From assembly GCA_026770025.1 (NCBI GenBank), contig JAMXDE010000072.1, forward strand, positions 1-64,000: a DNA stretch of 64,000 nucleotides. Reading direction: 5' to 3'. The number at the start of each line of letters is the position of its first letter. Within the stretch, counting starts at the first letter, position 1. Origin of the DNA: Craspedostauros australis (lineage: Eukaryota > Bacillariophyta > Bacillariophyceae > Mastogloiales > Achnanthaceae). The notes below the pieces were generated by a model, which saw nothing but the letters and a program-made list of their open reading frames with translations, had not been told where the DNA came from and made no database searches. The translations under genes were made by a program, and so were the position numbers. This document shows, one piece after another, positions 12,710 through 62,234 of the stretch.

Positions 12710-15168
12710 CACACCAACATGCATCAGGAGTGTACAACATGTACAGACCATCAACCAAGTCACTGGTCTGTTTCTGCAACATCAAATGGCTCAACCAATC
12801 ACACGGACAGTTCTGTGGCTGGGCACCAGCACCAAACATATCCAGCAAAGCAGGAACAACGGACGCAGACGGCTTCACAACCATCGGACGGAAGGGAGCA
12901 ATGCCAAGAACGGCAATACGTCAACAATCAGAAGCAAAGAGAGTATCTTTTGCTGACACGAACAAGTATCACATCCTATCAGACAGCAACAATGAGGATG
13001 ATGAGGACGATGAAGCAGTAACTCAACTAATCCATAACGACGACGAAGATCGGAGCGAATCCAATCATGAGGATGACGAGATCCCACCATCCAGCAACAA
13101 AGCCGACGATGATACAGACGTCACTCCTCCGAACACACCAGCGAGGTCTACACATGATACACCATCGAGACCTCCACCAAGCAAACCAAGGAAGCGTGAC
13201 ATAGCTAGAAAGGAGAGAATCCGACGTCACGAAGCACGAGGCAGGAAGGGAGAAGCTAATCCCAAACCGACTACAGGGAAGAGTATTCCTAGAGCTCTGC
13301 GTGAGCTTGCAGACTTCAACGAACGAGGCCAAAAGGAGGAAGGTTATGCGAGTGAGTCGTCATTCAACGAAGATAGTGACGAACTCAGTGACAAGATAAC
13401 CGACGAATCCAACAAAGAAACTACAGATGACGAGGAAGTCGTAGACGAAGAAGAAGAGATCGAGATCACCCACTACAATACAACTGGACTATACGGAATG
13501 AACGCAATCATCACTGAGACACCGGCAATCGACATTGGACTGTCGATGCAGGACGAGAACAAGGAACCAGAGAAACACATCGAACCAACGACATTCGATG
13601 GAGCTTTCAATCACCCGGATCCCATCCATCGAAAGGGATATCGAGCAGCCATCAAAAAGGAGTTCGACTCAATGGATACACGCAAGGTGTACAGCAAGAT
13701 CAAACGAGACGCCATCCCATGCGGCCGCAGATGCTGCAAATGCAAATGGGTCTTCAAGGTGAAGCACGACAGCACACATCGAGCACGACTCGTTGCATGT
13801 GGTTACTCACAAATCGCAGGAGTGGACTTCCAAGAGCATTACTCACCAGTGATTCATGACGTGACCTATCGGGTCATGATGGTGATCATGCTGATCAAGA
13901 AGATGGACTGCGCACTCGTCGATGTCGTAACGGCATTCCTACATGGAGACCTCAACGAGGAGATCTACATGAACTGTCCCAACGGAATGGATCATCAACC
14001 AGACGAAGCCCTGACCCTACACAAGCCAATCTACGGACTTGTTCAGAGCGCCAGGCAATGGTTCAAGATGTTGGTATCGACCCCCAAGAATATCAACTTC
14101 GAACAGAGCGCAGCGGACCCGTGCCTGTTCTACAGGAAGACGAACGAAGGAAGCATGATCGTGGCCATCTACGTGGACGATTGCTTCTGCTGTGGAGACT
14201 CCAAGGCACTGGAGACCTTCCTGAAGGACATCCAAGGCAGCAAATTCAAGGTGACAATCGAGCGCGGACTCGGAGACTACCTCAGCTGCAACATCGAACT
14301 GAACCATGACAAGACTAGAGCAACATTGCGTCAACCACATCTCATCCAACATCTCATCAAAGAATTTGGAACCAAGGTTGAGAAGATGCAATGCTACGGG
14401 ACACGGGGAACCCCGGGTCAAATCATCGTACGACCATCCGAAGATAACGGACTACAGAAGGTCGGACCGGAAGAACATGCCAAATACGGCCAAGGCGTCG
14501 GTATGCTACTCTTTCTCATCAAGCACTCGCGACCAGATATCGCGAACCCTGTGAGGGAACTCTCCAAGGTATTGATTGGGCCCACCAAGGCCGCAATGAA
14601 GGAGATGTATCGGATCATCAAGTACGTGATCGATACGCAGCACCATGGATTGAAGATCCATCCAGTATGCCCAGACGACGACGGCTGGGACATGGAGCTC
14701 TTCTGCGATAGCGAATATGCAGGGGACAAGAACACAAGAATCAGCGTAGGAGGGTTCATCCTATACCTGTGCAAGGTACCAATCCTTTGGCGATCCAAGG
14801 CACAGAAGGCCGTCACACTCAGCTCATCCGAAGCAGAATACGTTGCCCTCTCAGAAGCGGCAAAGGAAATCTTCTTCGTCGTGCAGCTACTCGAGAGTGT
14901 GGGTGTCCCAATGAAGACACCGATCAAGGTCCGTGCGGACAACGTCAGAGCGATCTTCATCGCCAAGAACCCATCAACATCCCAACAATCGCGGCACATC
15001 GACGTGCGCCATCACTACGTGAGGAACATGGTAACCAACAAGACCATCCCAATCATTTTTGTCAAATCCGAGCAGAACACAAGCGACGGATTCACCAAGA
15101 ACATCAAGGCCGACTTGCAACGAGAACATGAGAAGTCGTACCTTGACACATCGAGAACATTCGAATGA
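12710..15168 (+). mobile_element. Reverse transcriptase-RNase H region of the outer copia element
   Basis: A single long open stretch covers the back half of a copia polyprotein. It begins with a highly acidic linker (about 12950-13480). The reverse transcriptase follows, with the Lys-Trp-Val-Phe-Lys block near 13745, Ala-Phe-Leu-His-Gly near 13930, and the catalytic Tyr-Val-Asp-Asp near 14170. RNase H comes last, with Asp-Ser-Glu-Tyr-Ala-Gly-Asp near 14710, Ser-Ser-Glu-Ala-Glu-Tyr near 14825 and Arg-His-Ile-Asp-Val-Arg near 14995. This half looks whole, although the element overall is a broken fossil. The frame picks up directly to the right of the inner element's target-site duplication. 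Confidence 0.9.
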
Positions 15169-36524: not shown

Positions 36525-39500
36525 ATGGTACCAACAAACGGAAGGGAGATGGCAATGATGATGACACAAACACAAACACAAACACAAACACAAACACAAA
36601 CAGAGATACAGTCAGAAGCACAGTCAGAAGCACAGAAAGAGATGAAGATGTCCAAACAGACGATGGCAAGAACGGTCGGATTTCGATCAGCTCGTGTTTG
36701 GTCGATCACCATGATGATGACCATGATGATGGCTCTGCTTTTGCTGACTTCGGCATTCACACAAGCACAGGCATCACCAGCAACAGCGGAGGCAGCATCT
36801 CAGTTCTCACAGGACCACGGCAATCCCTCCATCGACAATCTGCAGCAACGGCAATCAGGACAGAGAAGGAGGCAACAACAAAGACATAGACAACGATCGA
36901 AGCTAGATCAAACGCAACAGCGAACTCAGCAGGAACGGCGAGGTCAGAGACAACTGACGGAAGATGATGCAGATGAGGCAAACGATGCGGAGGAACCGTG
37001 GAGTCCATCACCACGAGCCGCATCAGGATCGACGAACACAACGACGAAGCACATCCTTGCTCTGCTGCCTTGCACAGTCGCCAAGCCACTCATCGCAACC
37101 GAGATTGGCCAACCATCGCCGTCTTCTTCGGCTGGCCAAGCTGACGGCCAGGTTCTGTGTGACATGGGCATCTCGCATGCGGCAGCCATCGATCTGGCGC
37201 TGCGTCATTTCCATCAAGGCGACAGCTTCGTTGTGGGTGCCAACTCCGATCAGCAACATAATGACTCTGCGACCCACGACATTGACGTCGACATCGACTT
37301 CAATGTCAAGGTGCACGTGCGCTTCCTGCCCAACGATGGATCGGATGAGCAATCGGCATTGAGGATTGCGTTGGATGCTCTCGACGACCTGGCCAAATCA
37401 AGCACCACCGCATCGCAGGATGCCGCGTTCGATGCCTTGCTCCTGTCCAACTTCCTGCGCCCGCGATCGTTCCTGGAATGGAGCGCCTTGGCGGAAGCGT
37501 GGAACGTCCCCTTGCTGGTCATCGGGGGTGGCTACCAACGCTCCCTTGCGGCCACGGCATCCAACGCGGCCACCATGACGATGCAGGCCATGTCCGAACC
37601 CTCCACACAGCCAACCACAGATGCCCCAACGCACATGACGACGCGTCTCAGCATCGATGCCTTCAGCTTGGCCACGGCGGCGAGCAAATATTTGCAGTAC
37701 ATTCATCGTTCCAAGTACGTCGCCCTGCTGCATGCCACGAATCCCACCAGCATCAATCTGCACGAGGCCATGCTCCTCGTCAGATCGATCGACGCGCAGA
37801 CGACGCAAGACTCGACCATGTCCGTCAGCTTCAATCTCGATGCGGCCGCGCTCACGCAGAGGGTGGCCTCCACTTTCGATGCCGCGGATAATGACGCCAC
37901 CAGCATTGCCAACATCGACGATCGGTCCATCGCGTCGGCGTTGCAGGAGATCTTCGATCGCGGATTCCTCACGATCGTCTGGATCGTCGAGGACGTGTGG
38001 CTCGAGCTGCCCTATATGGCCAAGATCGCGGAACAGAAGAACATGATGCCCGAGGATGGATACGTCTGGACGCTCATTGGCGACGTCGGTCCCGAAGCGT
38101 TGCTGCAGATCAAGCAGCGGCAGCAGGATTTCGTGGCCGGCGACAGCAGGAAACAGGGTTACGACCGCATCTTGCGCCTGATCATGGGCAGCGCCATCAT
38201 CTGTCCCGTCGAAGGTTTCATTTACAATGCCGATCGCGATCCGTTCCTCAAGGCGTGGCGGGCATCGCAATGGGAGCCATCGCACCATCTCAGCATGGAT
38301 GATTCCATTCTCAACTCCGTCCAGCGCGAAGACTATTTCCAGACGACCTTCCCATCCTCCAACTCTGCCTACGTCTACGATGCGACCATCTCGTTGGCGA
38401 AGGCCTTGCATCAGTCCATGAATGCGGAACAAACGAACAACGACAACAGCAACAGCACGTCTCTCGTTCCAAACGATGTGGCGGCCTACATACGGCGGCT
38501 GAAATTCGACGGCGCCACGGGACACGTGAAGTTCCACCAGTCGGGATGGGATGAGGGCGAGCGCTTCGGATCCTTCCTGCCCATCGCCATATTCAACCTC
38601 TTCCGCGACAGCATGATCCAGCCAGGCACTCTCGATGAAGAATTCGATGAGGATGAGTCGTCGCAGATCGCCGCATCCAACCTGGTCAAGAGCATCACCG
38701 ATGTCTTGCTCGTCAGCAATCACACCGACAACGATGATCGGCAGTGGCAATCCGTGCGACCGTTCGTGTACTTCCACGGTGCCTTGGAACCGCCGTCTCT
38801 GCTCAGACGGATCGTGAACGAGAATCACTTGGAGCAAGCGGCGCGTGTCTACGGATTCACCTTGTTCACGCTCTCCATGATCCTGCATGTGTCTCTCATC
38901 GCGTGGGTCTTCTGGAAGCGCGAGACGAAGGCCCTCAAGGCGGCGCAGCCGGAATTCCTCTACGTCCTCATCGTCGGTTCCATGTGCCTGTGCGGTTCCA
39001 TCATCTCCAACTCCTTCGACGAGAGCTACGGGTGGACGCCCGATGAACTGGGCCGGGCCTGCACCTCCAGTCCCTGGCTCATCGTCATTGGCTTCACGCT
39101 CATCTACAGCGCGCTGTGGTGCAAGCTGTGGCGCATCCAAAAGGTCCTGCAGTTCTCGCGCAAGAAGACGACGGCGCTGTCCGTCATCGGCCCGGCGTCC
39201 GCGTTGCTCTTCGTCGTGATCGTCACCATGGCCGCGTGGACGGTCATGGGCGGCTTCGATTGGCGCAGGACCGTGGTGGACGAGCTCACAGGCGAGACGA
39301 CGGGCAACTGCAAAGGCGATGGAACGGTCTACTGGTTCACGCCCATCTTCCTCGTCATGCTCATTCCACCCGTCCTCACCATGAGTCTCGTGTGGAAGAC
39401 GAGAGATATTGACAACAAGTACGCCGAGACGCGGTGGATCTTCAGCATGATCATCGCCCAGTTCCAGCTTCTCATGATCAGCATCCCCGTCATCCTCTTC

Positions 39501-40193
39501 GTCGATGACAAGTCGACGACCGTGCGGTACGTGGGACAGAGCAGCGTCTTCTTCCTCTTCTCTATCACCACCATCACGCTCATATTCGCGCCCAAGCTGT
39601 ACTACGTCCACTTCCGCAAGGAGGTCGCCGTGAAGAGATCCAAGCGCGGCTCTTCCATCGGCCAGGTCCGCGTCAGCGGCGCCACCTTGCAACAGGGCAG
39701 CGGATACTGCACCTGCGGTGCTCGACAAGGATACGGACTCTCGACCAACTTTTCGCAGTACGCCAACAACAGCCAAGCCGAATCTCCGTCGCAGGTCGGT
39801 CGCGGAGCCGCCTACACATCGGGCAGCAGCCACGTTCGTGCGTCTTCCACACCACTTGCAACGGGCAAGCCGGTCGTGACGATGAACTCGCCGCCGATGA
39901 CGCCGTGGACTCCCACCACCACAACTCCCGTCACGCCGACAACCACCGCCAACACGTACATGCCGTCGATCCCGAATCTGCACACCAGCGATATCGCAAC
40001 AGAGACAAACAAGCCCGGCACAAACATCAACCCATCCCTCACCACGATCGACGAATCGCAGCAGGAATGCACCACCTCCAACGCCGTCGACGCCGTGTGC
40101 AAGTCCACCATGTCCAGCACGCATTCTATGTCCTCCAGCTACTACTCCAACGACAGCAGCATCGAATCACACATGAGCTCGGGGCAGGTGTAG
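36525..40193 (+). CDS. Class C (GABA-B/glutamate-type) G-protein-coupled receptor
   Basis: This single-exon gene encodes up to 1,222 aa. The first ATG is at 36525. An in-frame ATG at residue 43 or 48 would place a cleaner signal peptide (a Met/Leu-rich core ending Ala-Gln-Ala) at the very N-terminus, and the leading Thr-Gln repeat is encoded by an ACACAA microsatellite. The ectodomain (about 175-740) resembles the periplasmic-binding-protein-like ligand domain of family 3 receptors. A seven-helix domain of the 7tm_3 family follows (about 769-1030), with an extracellular-loop Cys pair and the ending Ile-Phe-Ala-Pro-Lys-Leu-Tyr, a hallmark of GABA-B-like receptors. No Cys-rich domain intervenes, again GABA-B-like. 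The tail (1031-1222) is rich in Ser, Thr and Pro. It probably senses an extracellular small molecule; the ligand is unknown. Confidence 0.9.
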   Translation: MVPTNGREMAMMMTQTQTQTQTQTQTEIQSEAQSEAQKEMKMSKQTMARTVGFRSARVWSITMMMTMMMALLLLTSAFTQAQASPATAEAASQFSQDHGNPSIDNLQQRQSGQRRRQQQRHRQRSKLDQTQQRTQQERRGQRQLTEDDADEANDAEEPWSPSPRAASGSTNTTTKHILALLPCTVAKPLIATEIGQPSPSSSAGQADGQVLCDMGISHAAAIDLALRHFHQGDSFVVGANSDQQHNDSATHDIDVDIDFNVKVHVRFLPNDGSDEQSALRIALDALDDLAKSSTTASQDAAFDALLLSNFLRPRSFLEWSALAEAWNVPLLVIGGGYQRSLAATASNAATMTMQAMSEPSTQPTTDAPTHMTTRLSIDAFSLATAASKYLQYIHRSKYVALLHATNPTSINLHEAMLLVRSIDAQTTQDSTMSVSFNLDAAALTQRVASTFDAADNDATSIANIDDRSIASALQEIFDRGFLTIVWIVEDVWLELPYMAKIAEQKNMMPEDGYVWTLIGDVGPEALLQIKQRQQDFVAGDSRKQGYDRILRLIMGSAIICPVEGFIYNADRDPFLKAWRASQWEPSHHLSMDDSILNSVQREDYFQTTFPSSNSAYVYDATISLAKALHQSMNAEQTNNDNSNSTSLVPNDVAAYIRRLKFDGATGHVKFHQSGWDEGERFGSFLPIAIFNLFRDSMIQPGTLDEEFDEDESSQIAASNLVKSITDVLLVSNHTDNDDRQWQSVRPFVYFHGALEPPSLLRRIVNENHLEQAARVYGFTLFTLSMILHVSLIAWVFWKRETKALKAAQPEFLYVLIVGSMCLCGSIISNSFDESYGWTPDELGRACTSSPWLIVIGFTLIYSALWCKLWRIQKVLQFSRKKTTALSVIGPASALLFVVIVTMAAWTVMGGFDWRRTVVDELTGETTGNCKGDGTVYWFTPIFLVMLIPPVLTMSLVWKTRDIDNKYAETRWIFSMIIAQFQLLMISIPVILFVDDKSTTVRYVGQSSVFFLFSITTITLIFAPKLYYVHFRKEVAVKRSKRGSSIGQVRVSGATLQQGSGYCTCGARQGYGLSTNFSQYANNSQAESPSQVGRGAAYTSGSSHVRASSTPLATGKPVVTMNSPPMTPWTPTTTTPVTPTTTANTYMPSIPNLHTSDIATETNKPGTNINPSLTTIDESQQECTTSNAVDAVCKSTMSSTHSMSSSYYSNDSSIESHMSSGQV
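36563..36604 (+). repeat. ACACAA microsatellite inside the receptor reading frame
   Basis: The hexamer repeats about six times and encodes Thr-Gln dipeptides near the N-terminus. It would lie outside the protein if translation starts at the later ATG that gives the better signal peptide. Confidence 0.9.
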
Positions 40194-40673: not shown

Positions 40674-43664
40674 TTAGAGTTCAAACTCGTCTTCGATCTC
40701 ATCGAGTGAGACGGGGACACCAACCACGGTGTAACCGTTGTTGTCGTCAGTGCCGTCGTTGTCGTTGGCGACCCACACATATCCTTCATTGTCGATGGTC
40801 AAACCTTCCATCTTCTCGAGGATGAGATCGAATGTGATCTCCTCGAGGGGTTCAAGCAGATCAAAGGCGAGGGTCTTGTCCACGACATCGCCCGGCTCCT
40901 GTTCGCCCAGGTCGATGTAGTAGATTCTCTTGATGGCGGCATCCGGGCCTGCCTGGTTGTCGCGCTCGAGCACGAGGAATTCGGCTTCGCCGATCGATGC
41001 GATGTCGGAAAGGCCGACCCATCCTCCGTTCTGGGATTCGACGGGGTCGAGTGGGTAGAAGAAGAACATCCACTCGTCGTCCTCGATGTCGTAGACGGCG
41101 ATGCGTGGGTGGTCGTCGCCTGGCCAGGCGCGTTGCATGGTGATGGCGACATAGCCTTCGAATTCGCCGGTGGGTTCGACGACACCCTCGAAACCGTATC
41201 GGTACTGGGCGTCATTGAGCTCGTCTGGGAGGGTGACGACCTTCTCGATGACGCCGTAGCTGCTGACCTTGATGAGCATGTTGAGAGATTCGACGGGGCG
41301 TTGGGCACTTCCAGCGGTTCCACGTCCCTCGTGGACTACCCAGAAACCATCATCGAGGTGTGTGACGGCGATGCCCTCGAGGTCGAGGTTGACGGTATCG
41401 TCGTCGTTGACGAGGGCAGCGAGGTCGTCGGCGGTGAACTCTCCGTAGGTGTCCATGTTCTTGAGAACGTCCATGGTGTCCATGATGCGGGTCTCCTTGG
41501 TGAGGACGGATGGGTATTCCTCGGTGTCGATGGTGAAGATGCGGCTCTTGTCGTAAGCAGAGTCTTCGACGGCGTAGAGGATATATTCAGAGGAGGAGCG
41601 CTTCTTGTCGAACTTGGCAGCCTTGGGTTCCTTCTCTTCCTTGTATTCCTTCTCTTCCTTGAAGCCCTTGGCAGCCTTGGGCAACTTGGTGGCTCCATCA
41701 TCGGCGACGACACCCTTGTTACCCTTGAGGTTGCGGCCCTTAACGCCCTTCGATTGCTTTGGTGCCTTGGTGGTCACGTCGCCGTCGTACTCGCTTGGCT
41801 CCTTGCTCATCTTTGGCATCTTGGTGAGTCGGTCATCCATGTGGTAATCATAAATGCGGGTCTCTGCGGCCAATCCGCTGATGGCAGCCCATGGGATTGG
41901 AATGCCCGGAGATCCTTCGCGGTCGGCGGAGATGAGGAACGGGTACTCTGGCTCTCCAAGGCCGTAGCTGTAGATGGAGATGCTGGAACGGATCTTGTCG
42001 CCACGGTCGTCGACTTCAGCGGCAGCGACGAAGAGTCCGCGGGATGGGATGGCGAATCCACCCTCTGGGCCGACGCCGGATGGCAGGGCCTGGACGTACT
42101 TGGGCGAGGTCGGGTAGTTGATGTTGAAGACGAAGATCAGGCCGGTTCGCTCGGAGATGACGAAGAGGAGTCTGTCTCCGTCGAAGGTGCCGACGACCAC
42201 GTTCTCAGGCTGTACGATATCCAGAATGTGTTGAAGGATGAACGAGTGGATGAACAGATGAAGGAAGATGGATGTGAATGGGGGCAGATGAAGACATGTG
42301 AGTGCATGACAACGTAAGGACATCGCGAGGACACCATAAGGACATTAGAAGGACATCATGAGGAAAGAATATCACACACACACACATACACACATGTATG
42401 TATGTGTATGTGGAGGTACTCATCAATGTTGCGACGCACCTCATTTCCCTTGTTTTCGGAACGGTGCTCAGGGTAATGTCCGAGACGGGCGGCCATGTGA
42501 TCGAGCATGTTGCCGGATGAGTAGGCGACGCTGTTGTCGTAGCTATCGAAGACGGTGAACCCGCGGCTGCCTCCGTCGAGGTCACCCTCGTCGGCGGTGA
42601 CGAAGTACTGGTTGTCGATCCAGGCGACACCATCTGGCTCGCGGGGGACCCCAGAGAGGGAGTCTGTGAAGGTGACGATCTCTTCCCTGTGATATCATGC
42701 GGAGAGATGGAATGCAGAAAGGTTGTGGTAGAGTGGAACGTGTTCGGTGAGTCAGTCAGTCAGTCAGTCCAACACAAACATATACTAGCAAATACAGGCA
42801 CAAACCAAGGCACAAGCACGGAGGCGCTTACTCGGTGACGTCGATGTCGGTGAGGTCGACGGTGCCGGCAGAGTAGGAGTCGATGACCATCTTGGTGGCG
42901 AGATCGACCTCGATCAGGGCGTTGTTCTCCTGCAGACCAACGATGGCGATGTTGTGCTCGTTGATGGAGACGTATTCTGGCTCTGGATCGTCTGGGAACT
43001 TGACTCCGTCCAATCCGACGAGATCGATGTCGGTCTTGACCCAGTCGGTGGGCGCTCCCATGAGGTCCAGGACGACGAGGAAGCCGGCTGGCGCCTGCGG
43101 TGGGGCACCGTCGCCGAGGTCCTCGTCGCGCTCGTTCTCGATGCAGATGGCGGCGTAGCGGTAGTCCTTGGAGATGGCGATGGCATCCGGCTGTCCGCCC
43201 AGGTCGATTCTGGTGACCTCGGACATGGTCTCCATGTTGATGACGACGAGCTCTCCGGAGGTGTTGACGAAGTCGGCGCTGGTGTTGATGGCAGCGAGGA
43301 CGTACTTGCCGACGACGGCGACGGAAGTGGTCTCGCCGCCGATATCCATGGCTCCCGCGGCCAGTGGATTGTAAGGATCCGTGATGTCGACGAAGCCGAC
43401 TGAGTCATTCTCGCTGTCTCCGTAGATGAGGGTCATGCCATCATCAGATGCGACAACGATCTCGGCCACGGTCTCAGTGTCGATGTTGCAGGTCGGCTCG
43501 AGCTGAGAGCAGACGAGGAAGGTGGCGATGCGGTCAAAGGTACTAACGGTGTACTCGTCCCTGCCGGCCTTGGCGCCCTTGAGCTGGCGGCGGCTGAAGT
43601 GCTCTGCCTCCGCGGAGGCTGGAGCTACCATGAGGAGCGGGAGGAGGAAGTTGGTGAACTTCAT
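40674..43664 (-). CDS. Secreted beta-propeller / phytase-esterase-like protein with lysine clusters
   Basis: The gene has three exons: 43664-42832, 42686-42440 and 42209-40674 (871 aa, summed length a multiple of three). Introns of 145 and 230 bp have GTAAGC-CAG and GTGCGT-CAG borders. The first splice restores Thr-Glu-Glu-Glu and the second joins Lys-Gly-Asn-Glu to Pro-Glu-Asn-Val. The protein has a signal peptide (1-18, ending Ala-Ser-Ala) and then Arg-Arg-Gln-Leu at 25-28. A beta-propeller of the choice-of-anchor I type follows (to about 480), and the C-terminal part (about 650-860) looks like the esterase-like phytase domain, with Glu-Gly-Ile-Ala and Glu-Gly-Leu-Thr blocks. Between them, residues 490-563 are a Lys-rich insert. 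From 535 to 562 every third residue is Lys (ten in a row), with shorter KXX runs at 490-496 and 508-525. Such clusters occur in diatom silaffin-type proteins. The protein is probably extracellular or in the silica vesicle; enzyme activity is uncertain. Confidence 0.88.
41601..41822 (-). other. KXX lysine-cluster insert of the secreted propeller protein
   Basis: This part of exon 3 encodes residues 490-563. Lysines fall at exact three-residue spacing: 490, 493, 496; 508, 511, 514, 517; 522, 525; and 535 through 562 without a miss. The spacers alternate between small/hydrophobic pairs (LP, AA, GF, EP) and Glu-rich pairs. In diatom silaffins KXXK (pentalysine) clusters are known silica-targeting signals; its role here is inference. 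Confidence 0.7.
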
Positions 43665-45585: not shown

Positions 45586-47741
45586 ATGAACACCAACATG
45601 GTGACGGCAGCAGCGCTTCCACCTGCCAACGTATCGGCAGTTCCCTCTGTGCCTTGGCATCCCAATGATACGATGGGATTCGGCAAGAATCTTCCAATTC
45701 TGGAGCCACCCGTGCTGAATCAGCGCACTCCCATCCATGCAGACGAATGGAAAGGGCAGCAACGTCACCAGCAACATGAGAGACGGCACGATCGAATCGC
45801 ATTCGGATCATGCAACGATCAAGATCGGCAGAACAACATGTGGGAGATCATCGCCGATCGTCAACCATCAGGATTCATTTGGGGTGGCGATGCAATCTAT
45901 GCAGGTATGTCCATGACAATGGCAATGGCAATGTCAATGTTGCCATCTTCTACTACTATTAGTTGTACTCTCCTCGAATCTATGCCATATGCATGCATAT
46001 GTGCGTGTATGTGTACGTCATGAGATTCCATCCCTCATTCGTTCCCTCACACAACGCATACGCACATACGCATCCATGCCCTTCTTCTAAAACAGACACA
46101 CACCACCCGACCGATTGGTCTACATTCCCACCCACGCCTTCATGGACGCAATGCGGCACGCCCGAACACGTCGAACAACTCTACCGAGACCAACTGCAGG
46201 TGCCGGAGTACAGAGAGCTGCTGGAGCAGAACCCAGATCTCACAATCTTTGGCACCATCGATGGTACGTGATTCTTTGAGAGTGGCAGCATAGACTGATA
46301 TGCACCATCAAACGTCGTCTCTGTCGTCCGTCAACTCACATACGAACACGCTCTGCTCGTGCTGCAAATCTCATGCTCTTCATGATTCTCTTTCACGACT
46401 TCATCCTTCATTGTGCAATAACAATCACACCCGACATCGTTATACTCTATATGTACATATCATATGACAGATCACGACTATGGTTGCAACAACGCTGACA
46501 AAACGTTCGATCACAAGCATGCGACAACACAGTCCTTCATCGATTTCCTGGGTCTGGAGGAAGATTCCACCATGGCCCAACGTGCCAAGGCTGGGGATGG
46601 TGTTTACGGTGTCCAGCTTTTTGACTTCGCTTTGGATCATGGTTCCCATGCCATCTCTGAGCAAGATGCAAGGATCGACCCTGATATCGTCCAGCGCATT
46701 GAGCAGCGGCAACCACAACATGCGGCTGCAACAGGCATATCGCAATACATCCCGAGCAACAGGACGGTCGCCATCTTCGTGTTGGACGTCCGCACCAACA
46801 AGGACCCATGGCGCACTGGTGCTGACGCCGTCACACCTGACTTTGACGGTGACTTCCTGGGTCCCAAACAATGGACCTGGTTCGAACAGGCCATCATGAA
46901 CAGCCCTGCGACGATCAACGTCATCGTGACTGGCCTGCAGGTCGAAGCCGACATCGTCCCCGATCCCAACCTCGCGGAGAGCTGGTCGCGATTCCCATCG
47001 TCGCAGCGTCGCCTCTTCAACACCGTGCTCAACGCTCCCGGCTCCCCCATCCTGGTCAGCGGCGACGTCCACATGACGCAGATGATGCGCATGGACTGCA
47101 TGCAGGAGGGCAGCGACCAACCGCAGTCGTTGTTCGAGATGACGACGAGCGGCATGACCCATTCGTGGGGCACGATCACGAATCCGCACCACAACGCACC
47201 ATCGTCCATCACGTGGCGAGATCATCTTCATGCTCTCCTGTCGCGAACCTTCATGCACACCTTGCATCAGCTCAATCCGTGGACGACGTTGCTGCGCAAG
47301 GACTACGCCGATGGCGGCTTGCAGTACTCGTTGGAGAAGAACTTTGGGGAGCTGGAGTTTGACTGGGATCGGCAGGCCGTGACCATGCGGACGATCGGCG
47401 AGCAGCGGCAGGTTCTGCTGCAGCACACCAGCACATTGAACGATCAGGAGCCGTTGATGCATCTCACGTTCGAAGATTTTGCACAAGAGGCAGAAGCTCG
47501 ACGACGACAGCAGCAGCATCCAGGAGGCGATGGCGCCGAATGGATCTGCTTGCCGCATCGAGGGCGTGTGACGCGGTCCTACATTTGGTTGCGTTGGACC
47601 ATCACGGCTGCGATCCTGATCGGCGGCATCACGGTTCCGATTGTCACTCTCTGCTATCTCGTCTGGAGACGATTCAAACTATGGCTGCGGCACAACGACG
47701 ATAGCATGACGACGATGCCATCGCTGCGGCCTATCTACTAA
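45586..47741 (+). CDS. PhoD-like alkaline phosphatase/phosphodiesterase
   Basis: The gene has three exons: 45586-45904, 46096-46263 and 46471-47741 (585 aa, multiple of three). Both introns have GT-AG borders. The splices restore Gly-Asp-Ala-Ile-Tyr-Ala-Asp and Thr-Ile-Asp-Asp-His-Asp-Tyr-Gly, two metal-site motifs of the PhoD metallophosphatase family. Other family blocks are Phe-Gly-Ser-Cys-Asn near the start, Leu-Asp-Val-Arg-Thr, Gly-Leu-Gln-Val-Glu, a Phe-Pro-Ser-Ser-Gln-Arg stretch, Val-Ser-Gly-Asp-Val-His-Met and Thr-Thr-Ser-Gly-Met-Thr-His-Ser. A single hydrophobic segment (about residues 540-562) followed by a basic tail suggests C-terminal membrane anchoring. PhoD enzymes hydrolyse phosphomonoesters and diesters outside the cell, often with Fe/Ca cofactors and under phosphate limitation. 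No clear signal peptide follows the ATG used, so the true start may be in an upstream exon. Confidence 0.88.
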
Positions 47742-61982: not shown

Positions 61983-62234
61983 GCCCTTGTCGTTCCGATC
62001 ATGTGCTTGCTTTGCATGCTGGTGGCATAATGTGTCATCGCCCCCAACCCCGCTCTACTCTGCTCCGCCCAACTCAACTCAATCCCGCACCTCTCGTATC
62101 CCACCGGTACGAGTGCGCATGCTCCCCCACTCCGCACTGCTCTACGCTGCGCTGCTCTATTCATGTCCAACGCGAAAATGAATCGCAGCACACAATCCAA
62201 GCAACCGACAAGCAGCAAGCAGCAAACAGCAACC

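Follow-up and report, generated by a model that had tools for sequence, protein, structure and literature searches.

A bacterial-type propeller protein with a lysine-rich loop in a silica-forming alga, a candidate wall-targeted enzyme

Introduction

The gene described here encodes an enzyme-like protein with ten lysines in perfect three-residue register. The question it raises is whether such an array could attach an enzyme to silica or to the wall matrix. Known silica-associated proteins provide the standard of comparison. In the accessible parts of these sources, a silaffin-like screen asked for a signal peptide and KXXK with X = S or G (PMC5501833), a pentalysine cluster is five non-consecutive lysines in 12-14 residues (PMC5501833, PMC9650480), and eight tabulated lysine-enriched regions are dominated by serine and glycine spacers (PMC9650480). 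No description of this algal protein was found in the part of the literature covered, which is weak evidence of absence.

If the array does act as a tag, the protein would be a natural counterpart of engineered enzyme fixation in diatom silica via a lysine tag, and it would tie horizontal gene transfer to wall building. It would also test if lysine spacing alone, without serine phosphorylation, suffices for silica targeting. Since loop-less bacterial homologues are ready-made controls, the comparison is a clean one.

The gene and its neighborhood

The gene lies in a 64-kb stretch of DNA, referred to as the window, which is a piece of a 74.8-Mb assembly of 90 contigs. The start ATG is at 43664 and the stop ends at 40674 on the minus strand, so the gene coordinates proposed in the initial annotation (40674-43664) are right. 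The features used below are listed by window position.

40674..43664, minus strand: whole gene, 871 aa; exons 43664-42832, 42686-42440 and 42209-40674, with GT-AG introns, an open spliced frame and homology flanking each intron
43611..43664, minus strand: predicted signal peptide, residues 1-18; cut after A-S-A placed by eye, at 16 by the hydropathy rule
43569..43589, minus strand: RQL-KGAK, residues 26-32, an RxL with an immediate KxxK
42440..42686, minus strand: exon 2, a portion of the first propeller (choice-of-anchor I-like)
41583..41846, minus strand: predicted disordered insert rich in lysine, residues 482-569, at the turn that joins strands 1 and 2 of the phytase-like domain
41715..41735, minus strand: RNL-KGNK, residues 519-525, a second RxL then KxxK, within the insert
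41604..41687, minus strand: ten-lysine KXX array, residues 535-562
40755..41582, minus strand: phytase-like domain (PF13449) match downstream of the insert, residues 571-845

The gene model was made from DNA alone, and 16 splice combinations remain open over more than 800 residues. The 871-residue model was chosen because only its exon 2 and both junctions fit the bacterial alignment. These open combinations, together with an identity to bacterial proteins of up to 54.5%, leave some room for an artifact, either a wrong gene model or bacterial contamination. We find an artifact hardly credible, given two GT-AG introns with junctions that agree with the alignment to bacterial proteins, a eukaryotic neighbor and an assembly that contains silicon transporters; on introns, neighbor and transporters together we reject contamination. 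The neighbor, at 36525-40193 on the plus strand, is a class C GPCR-type receptor with 7tm_3 and ANF_receptor domains. This neighbor and the introns point to a eukaryotic gene.

On the opposite strand, upstream of the propeller gene, lies a PhoD-like phosphatase (46464-47741, plus strand; 39.2 bits, cut-off 27). By eye, it has earlier exons from about 45544 and a C-terminal hydrophobic stretch. Searches of the genome by protein, PF13449 and NF038117 gave no second copy of the propeller protein, and the window had no matches when scanned for tRNAs and Rfam families.

The folded core and its bacterial relatives

The protein belongs to the phytase-like family (PF13449) by score, with 138.1 bits against a curated cut-off of 27.6. 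Its first half is matched by the choice-of-anchor I models below their curated cut-offs (30.7 vs 32 for PF22494; 111.3 vs 300 for NF038117). By these cut-offs the algal protein is related to choice-of-anchor I without being a member, and two bacterial homologues (L047 and L019) likewise fall below them. The suggestion of a choice-of-anchor I / phytase-esterase fold is upheld for its phytase-like part and, by the curated cut-offs, not for the other.

The AlphaFold2 model of bacterial homologue L047 consists mainly of strands (mean pLDDT 91.3) and can be read as two propellers. On this model, the folded part of the algal protein is a bacterial-type double beta-propeller. Foldseek returned generic propellers, including paraoxonase, luciferin-regenerating enzyme and an amidating lyase, with TM-scores by query length of at most 0.34 among the 50 matches listed. 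Since these scores are low, we claim no catalytic class. A profile search of solved structures gave one weak match, the hydrazine synthase beta subunit (E 0.0011).

Relatives are numerous in bacteria. Homologues were found in 38 plasmid records, and in 31 of these one locus spans 80% or more of the query. An alignment-based scan of genome contigs detected at least 566 relatives among at least 596 pattern matches, after which the best 80 were used for all comparisons below; single-sequence tblastn scans of genome contigs and viral contigs had found no relative. Identity to the algal query is 39-42% in six bacterial proteins and reaches its maximum of 54.5% among the best 80 loci. Bacterial PF13449 proteins named 'esterase-like activity of phytase', such as those of Paracoccus denitrificans PD1222 plasmid 1 (NC_008688.1) and of a Thalassolituus MAG (L047), can be aligned with the algal protein nearly end to end. 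They differ from it in having neither the lysine insert nor RxLKxxK and in being less acidic than the algal core.

A tree of the best 80 bacterial homologues and the algal protein, with residues 480-569 removed, was made by a quick method with no bootstrap. The algal protein is nested in a 16-row bacterial clade (SH-aLRT 100), on a long branch (0.69) and with its composition flagged. Its neighbors are a cyanobacterial MAG contig (SH-aLRT 91), whose label is uncertain because the contig is only 5.6 kb, and two marine gammaproteobacteria. For this tree, in which the algal protein is the only eukaryotic one, horizontal transfer from bacteria would be the simplest reading. We take Msp130 to be related to the choice-of-anchor I proteins. 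A horizontal origin has been proposed for this animal protein, which is used in mineral formation (PMC4237138, citing Ettensohn 2014, in the accessible part of the source). The algal protein resembles it, by description alone, in its proposed horizontal origin and its possible mineral link, and differs in not coming from an animal.

The algal protein keeps 61 of the 61 positions that are invariant over the whole protein in all 80 bacteria, including all 22 acidic ones. Among positions conserved in at least 97% of them, 95 are retained and 3 lost; with the threshold at 90%, the figures are 141 and 11. Since these conserved, acid-rich residues are kept, the core probably keeps its chemistry, which is perhaps that of a Ca-dependent propeller hydrolase.

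A lysine-rich insert, predicted to be disordered, in the phytase-like domain

The segment between SGLAA and LYAV has 4-9 residues in all 80 bacterial homologues and 94 in the alga, and from this comparison the insert is about 88 residues long. A model of exon 3 only (511 residues, with the first propeller partly present; mean pLDDT 82.2) gives values below 50 for protein residues 480-564, which are residues 120-204 of the model. Strands at 470-475 and 570-575 flank this low-confidence stretch. At the same spot in the bacterial model, strands 469-474 and 481-486 are joined by a turn.

In three bacterial proteins scanned, the PF13449 match starts at profile position 1, ahead of this turn, and in the alga it begins at profile position 18, behind the insert. 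Because the bacterial matches begin ahead of the turn, the insert falls within the phytase-like domain, in its first hairpin. The initial annotation had placed it between two folded domains, which the bacterial profile boundary contradicts. We asked whether a 30-residue loop flanked by ETRIMD and LDLEGI might be a second insertion and ruled this out, as 25 of the 80 bacteria have 22-45 residues there.

The insert also stands out in charge. The mature protein without it has a net charge of -104 over 765 residues, the core is more acidic per residue than all 80 bacterial homologues, and the insert itself has a net charge of +7. Of the 39 lysines in the protein, 20 are concentrated in the 88 residues of the insert.

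Phasing of the lysines

Translation bears out the unbroken array described earlier. Lysine occupies positions 535, 538 and so on to 562, ten in register with zero misses, and the shorter KXX runs were found as well (490-493-496, 508-511-514-517 and 522-525). A run of at least ten phased lysines arose in 2 of 200,000 shuffles of residues 482-575. In the insert, 15 of the 19 gaps between neighboring lysines are exactly 3, a count reached in none of 200,000 shuffles. With the ten-lysine run left out, residues 482-531 still have 6 of 8 gaps equal to 3 (9/200,000 shuffles). Outside the insert, 1 of 18 gaps equals 3, which is ordinary (6,927/20,000 shuffles).

At the DNA level, a 16-base string of the array recurs at a distance of 18 bp and a 15-base string at a distance of 54 bp, and AAG encodes all 39 lysines of the gene. 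The phasing is therefore real, yet the ten positions did not all arise independently, since duplication produced part of the array. The spacers are LP, AA, GF, EE, EY, EE, EP, AA and FD. They are rich in glutamate and contain one glycine and no serine; residues 535-563 hold no serine, compared with 6 in the whole insert, and have a net charge of only +4.

The leader and the RxL-KxxK motifs

Signal peptides were called solely with a home-made rule that combines hydropathy and AxA. By this rule the protein has a signal-peptide-like start, with a leader end that reads S-R-R-Q-L-K-G-A-K. The RXL site behind a signal peptide, as in the PMC5501833 screen, is present as R26-Q-L28, where cleavage is putative. 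We dropped the argument that RxL by itself shows silica processing, because its chance frequency is high: composition predicts 2.2 RxL in the protein against 4 seen, and RxL arises in 9,966 of 100,000 shuffles of the insert. RxL alone is also weak because RXL may be a site at which endopeptidases cut diatom precursors in general (PMC4557024, accessible part). The initial annotation had read a signal peptide followed by Arg-Arg-Gln-Leu as a silaffin-like processing signal. RQL is indeed at 26-28 and the signal peptide follows from the rule described above, while the RxL cannot carry the silica argument by itself.

The low-complexity leader of the class C GPCR-type receptor contains RRGQRQL, so an RxL behind a leader is not restricted to candidate silica proteins. 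Among 231 frames scanned, some of them surely spurious and drawn from a non-random set of loci, 16 have signal-peptide-like starts, and in 8 of these an RxL lies within 60 residues.

The combined motif RxLKxxK is much rarer. Shuffles of residues 19-871 gave one copy in 195 of 50,000 cases and two copies in none of 50,000. The motif arose in 1,024 of 200,000 shuffles of the insert alone and in 69 of 200,000 shuffles of residues 19-60 alone. None of the 80 best bacterial homologues has it. Six-frame open stretches from the window and from 31 loci of the genome, 118,096 residues in all, contain it five times: twice in the propeller protein and once each in L031 (a DUF7640 protein), L027 and L033. 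By eye, L027 has a leader-like start, and L033 has IQ-like repeats and no signal-peptide-like start. A second frame at L027 is also leader-like, with RGLKSSKSSSGSG, and its composition looks silaffin-like by eye.

Silicon transporters and other lysine arrays in the genome

Matches to the silicon transporter family (PF03842) form 88 stretches in the genome, 32 of which cover almost the whole profile (about 761-831 bits). Four of these 32 have in-frame stops, and there are many fragments besides (e.g. L012-L017; C11, C9, C54, C37, C24). On these matches, the genome belongs to a silicifier. Reported SIT copy numbers in diatoms and Parmales range from 2-3 to over 30 (PMC13403384, accessible part), so the number here is high yet not unprecedented.

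A four-lysine AAG pattern occurs 716 times genome-wide, compared with 328 times for the reversed pattern. Twenty-five array places were read, 20 chosen by eye and 5 in list order, with starts assigned permissively from the best Met. The six Ser-rich arrays that lack Lys-Lys pairs (L026-L031) each lie in a frame with a signal-peptide-like start, and in four of them an RxL lies between leader and array. Among the other 19 places, L041 and L045 have a signal-peptide-like start and L043 has one from an internal Met only; the rest have none or no usable frame. Since the array of the propeller protein is Ser-free, its composition sets it apart from the six Ser-rich arrays.

The domain of unknown function DUF7640 (PF24646) has at least 163 match stretches in the genome and makes up a large family of candidate wall proteins. 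The ten top-scoring loci correspond to eight distinct genes (L131-L136, L139, L140). In all eight, R[QH]L stands immediately ahead of KxxK, before Cys-rich repeats; five have a leader-like start by eye, and the other three frames begin further in. Because these genes are paralogues, they are one lineage of evidence and not eight. Like the propeller protein, they have RxL directly followed by KxxK, in the order RxL, lysine array, folded domain. They are unlike it in their Ser-rich array, their unrelated domain and their membership of a large paralogous family.

A candidate wall-targeted enzyme and its alternatives

By the pentalysine definition, the array is a cluster: 13-residue windows starting at 535, 538, 541, 544, 547, 550 and other positions hold five non-consecutive lysines, and a targeting role of the array is putative. 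By contrast, the array spacers depart from the X = S or G rule of the silaffin-like screen (PMC5501833, accessible part), and the array is not the Ser-rich peptide of a silaffin. The protein therefore shares five lysines in 12-14 residues, KXXK spacing, a leader and RxL with the lysine-rich regions of silaffins and cingulins, in so far as the accessible parts of PMC5501833 and PMC9650480 describe them. It differs from them in having Glu, Ala and aromatic spacers in place of Ser and Gly, and in carrying the array in a loop of an enzyme-like fold. The loop may be a pentalysine-like tag without the protein being a silaffin.

We favor, with a probability of about 0.5, the reading that a bacterial-derived enzyme has been refitted with secretory and wall-targeting modules, the loop anchoring it in silica or wall. 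A silica-forming alga, most likely a diatom, would have acquired a secreted double beta-propeller enzyme horizontally from bacteria. Two additions would have followed, a secretory leader with an RxL site at its end and, extending from one beta-turn, a disordered lysine-rich loop of 88 residues. The leader would route the protein into the secretory pathway, where a protease may cut after RQL. The basic loop, as the sole lysine-rich part of an acidic protein, would then bind the negatively charged silica or wall matrix and hold the enzyme there; such silica binding is plausible. The second RxL-KxxK, within the loop, may also be cut, which would give a two-chain propeller with the enzyme half starting with the lysine array. 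The silica-associated enzyme or scaffold proposed in the initial annotation thus gains from the silicifier genome, the pentalysine cluster, the recurrence of RxL-KxxK and an insert found in 0 of 80 bacteria, and it loses from the Ser-free, Glu-rich spacers and the weakness of RxL. Also counting against the favored reading are the low net charge of residues 535-563 (+4) and the tendency, among the 25 places read, of arrays behind a signal-peptide-like start to be Ser-rich. Going further, RxL plus a KxxK array could be a portable cassette that this lineage puts into unrelated secreted proteins, in this case at a beta-turn of a bacterial-derived enzyme, with KEEK spacers as a built-in zwitterion replacing phosphorylated KSSK and a silica-immobilized, possibly two-chain wall enzyme as the product. 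We consider this extension rather unlikely.

The strongest competing readings are that the loop is a plain charged spacer and that the protein is an ectoenzyme related to phosphorus. In the former case, the loop would be an ordinary disordered spacer grown by short duplications in a permissive turn, with no silica role, and the protein would be a soluble or surface ectoenzyme. The DNA repeats spaced 18 bp and 54 bp apart agree with such growth, as does the Glu-rich, Ser-free composition; four-lysine AAG patterns are moreover common in this genome (716 vs 328), and many of those read lack a signal-peptide-like start. However, the phasing persists in residues 482-531, beyond the duplicated part (6/8; 9/200,000), more than half of the lysines (20/39) fall within 88 residues of an otherwise very acidic protein, and RNL-KGNK in the insert mirrors RQL-KGAK at the leader. 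We regard a plain spacer as possible rather than probable. The insert could instead serve chiefly for processing, if cleavage at RNL (519-521) split the propeller into two chains and so switched activity or release. RNL does sit in the disordered insert with KGNK and the array next to it, the order RxL, array, domain recurs in 8 of 8 DUF7640 genes read, and endopeptidase cleavage of diatom precursors at RXL has been proposed (PMC4557024, accessible part). Such a cut would nevertheless separate the first strand of the domain from the remainder, and RxL arises in about a tenth of insert shuffles (9,966/100,000), so we judge this role quite improbable.

The phosphorus-related alternative holds that the propeller hydrolyses phosphoesters and that the basic loop gathers polyanions such as phytate or polyphosphate. 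It draws on the phytase-like score of 138.1 bits and on the PhoD-like phosphatase on the opposite strand (39.2 bits, cut-off 27). Against it, 'Esterase-like activity of phytase' is a family name and not an assayed activity, and a single neighbor in a single genome is weak. In addition, the annotated neighbors in six plasmid loci include a trehalose-phosphatase and a protein phosphatase and no phosphate-scavenging gene. We therefore hold a phosphorus-scavenging role to be unlikely.

Two further observations concern the rest of the window. The stretch at 12730-15168 (plus strand) is presumably a fragment of a Copia-type retrotransposon polyprotein, judging from motifs seen by eye. Near 62031, a plus-strand frame of 588 residues has a signal-peptide-like start followed by RIRALKIG, which contains RxLK, and then by sequence containing Lys, Pro and Thr.
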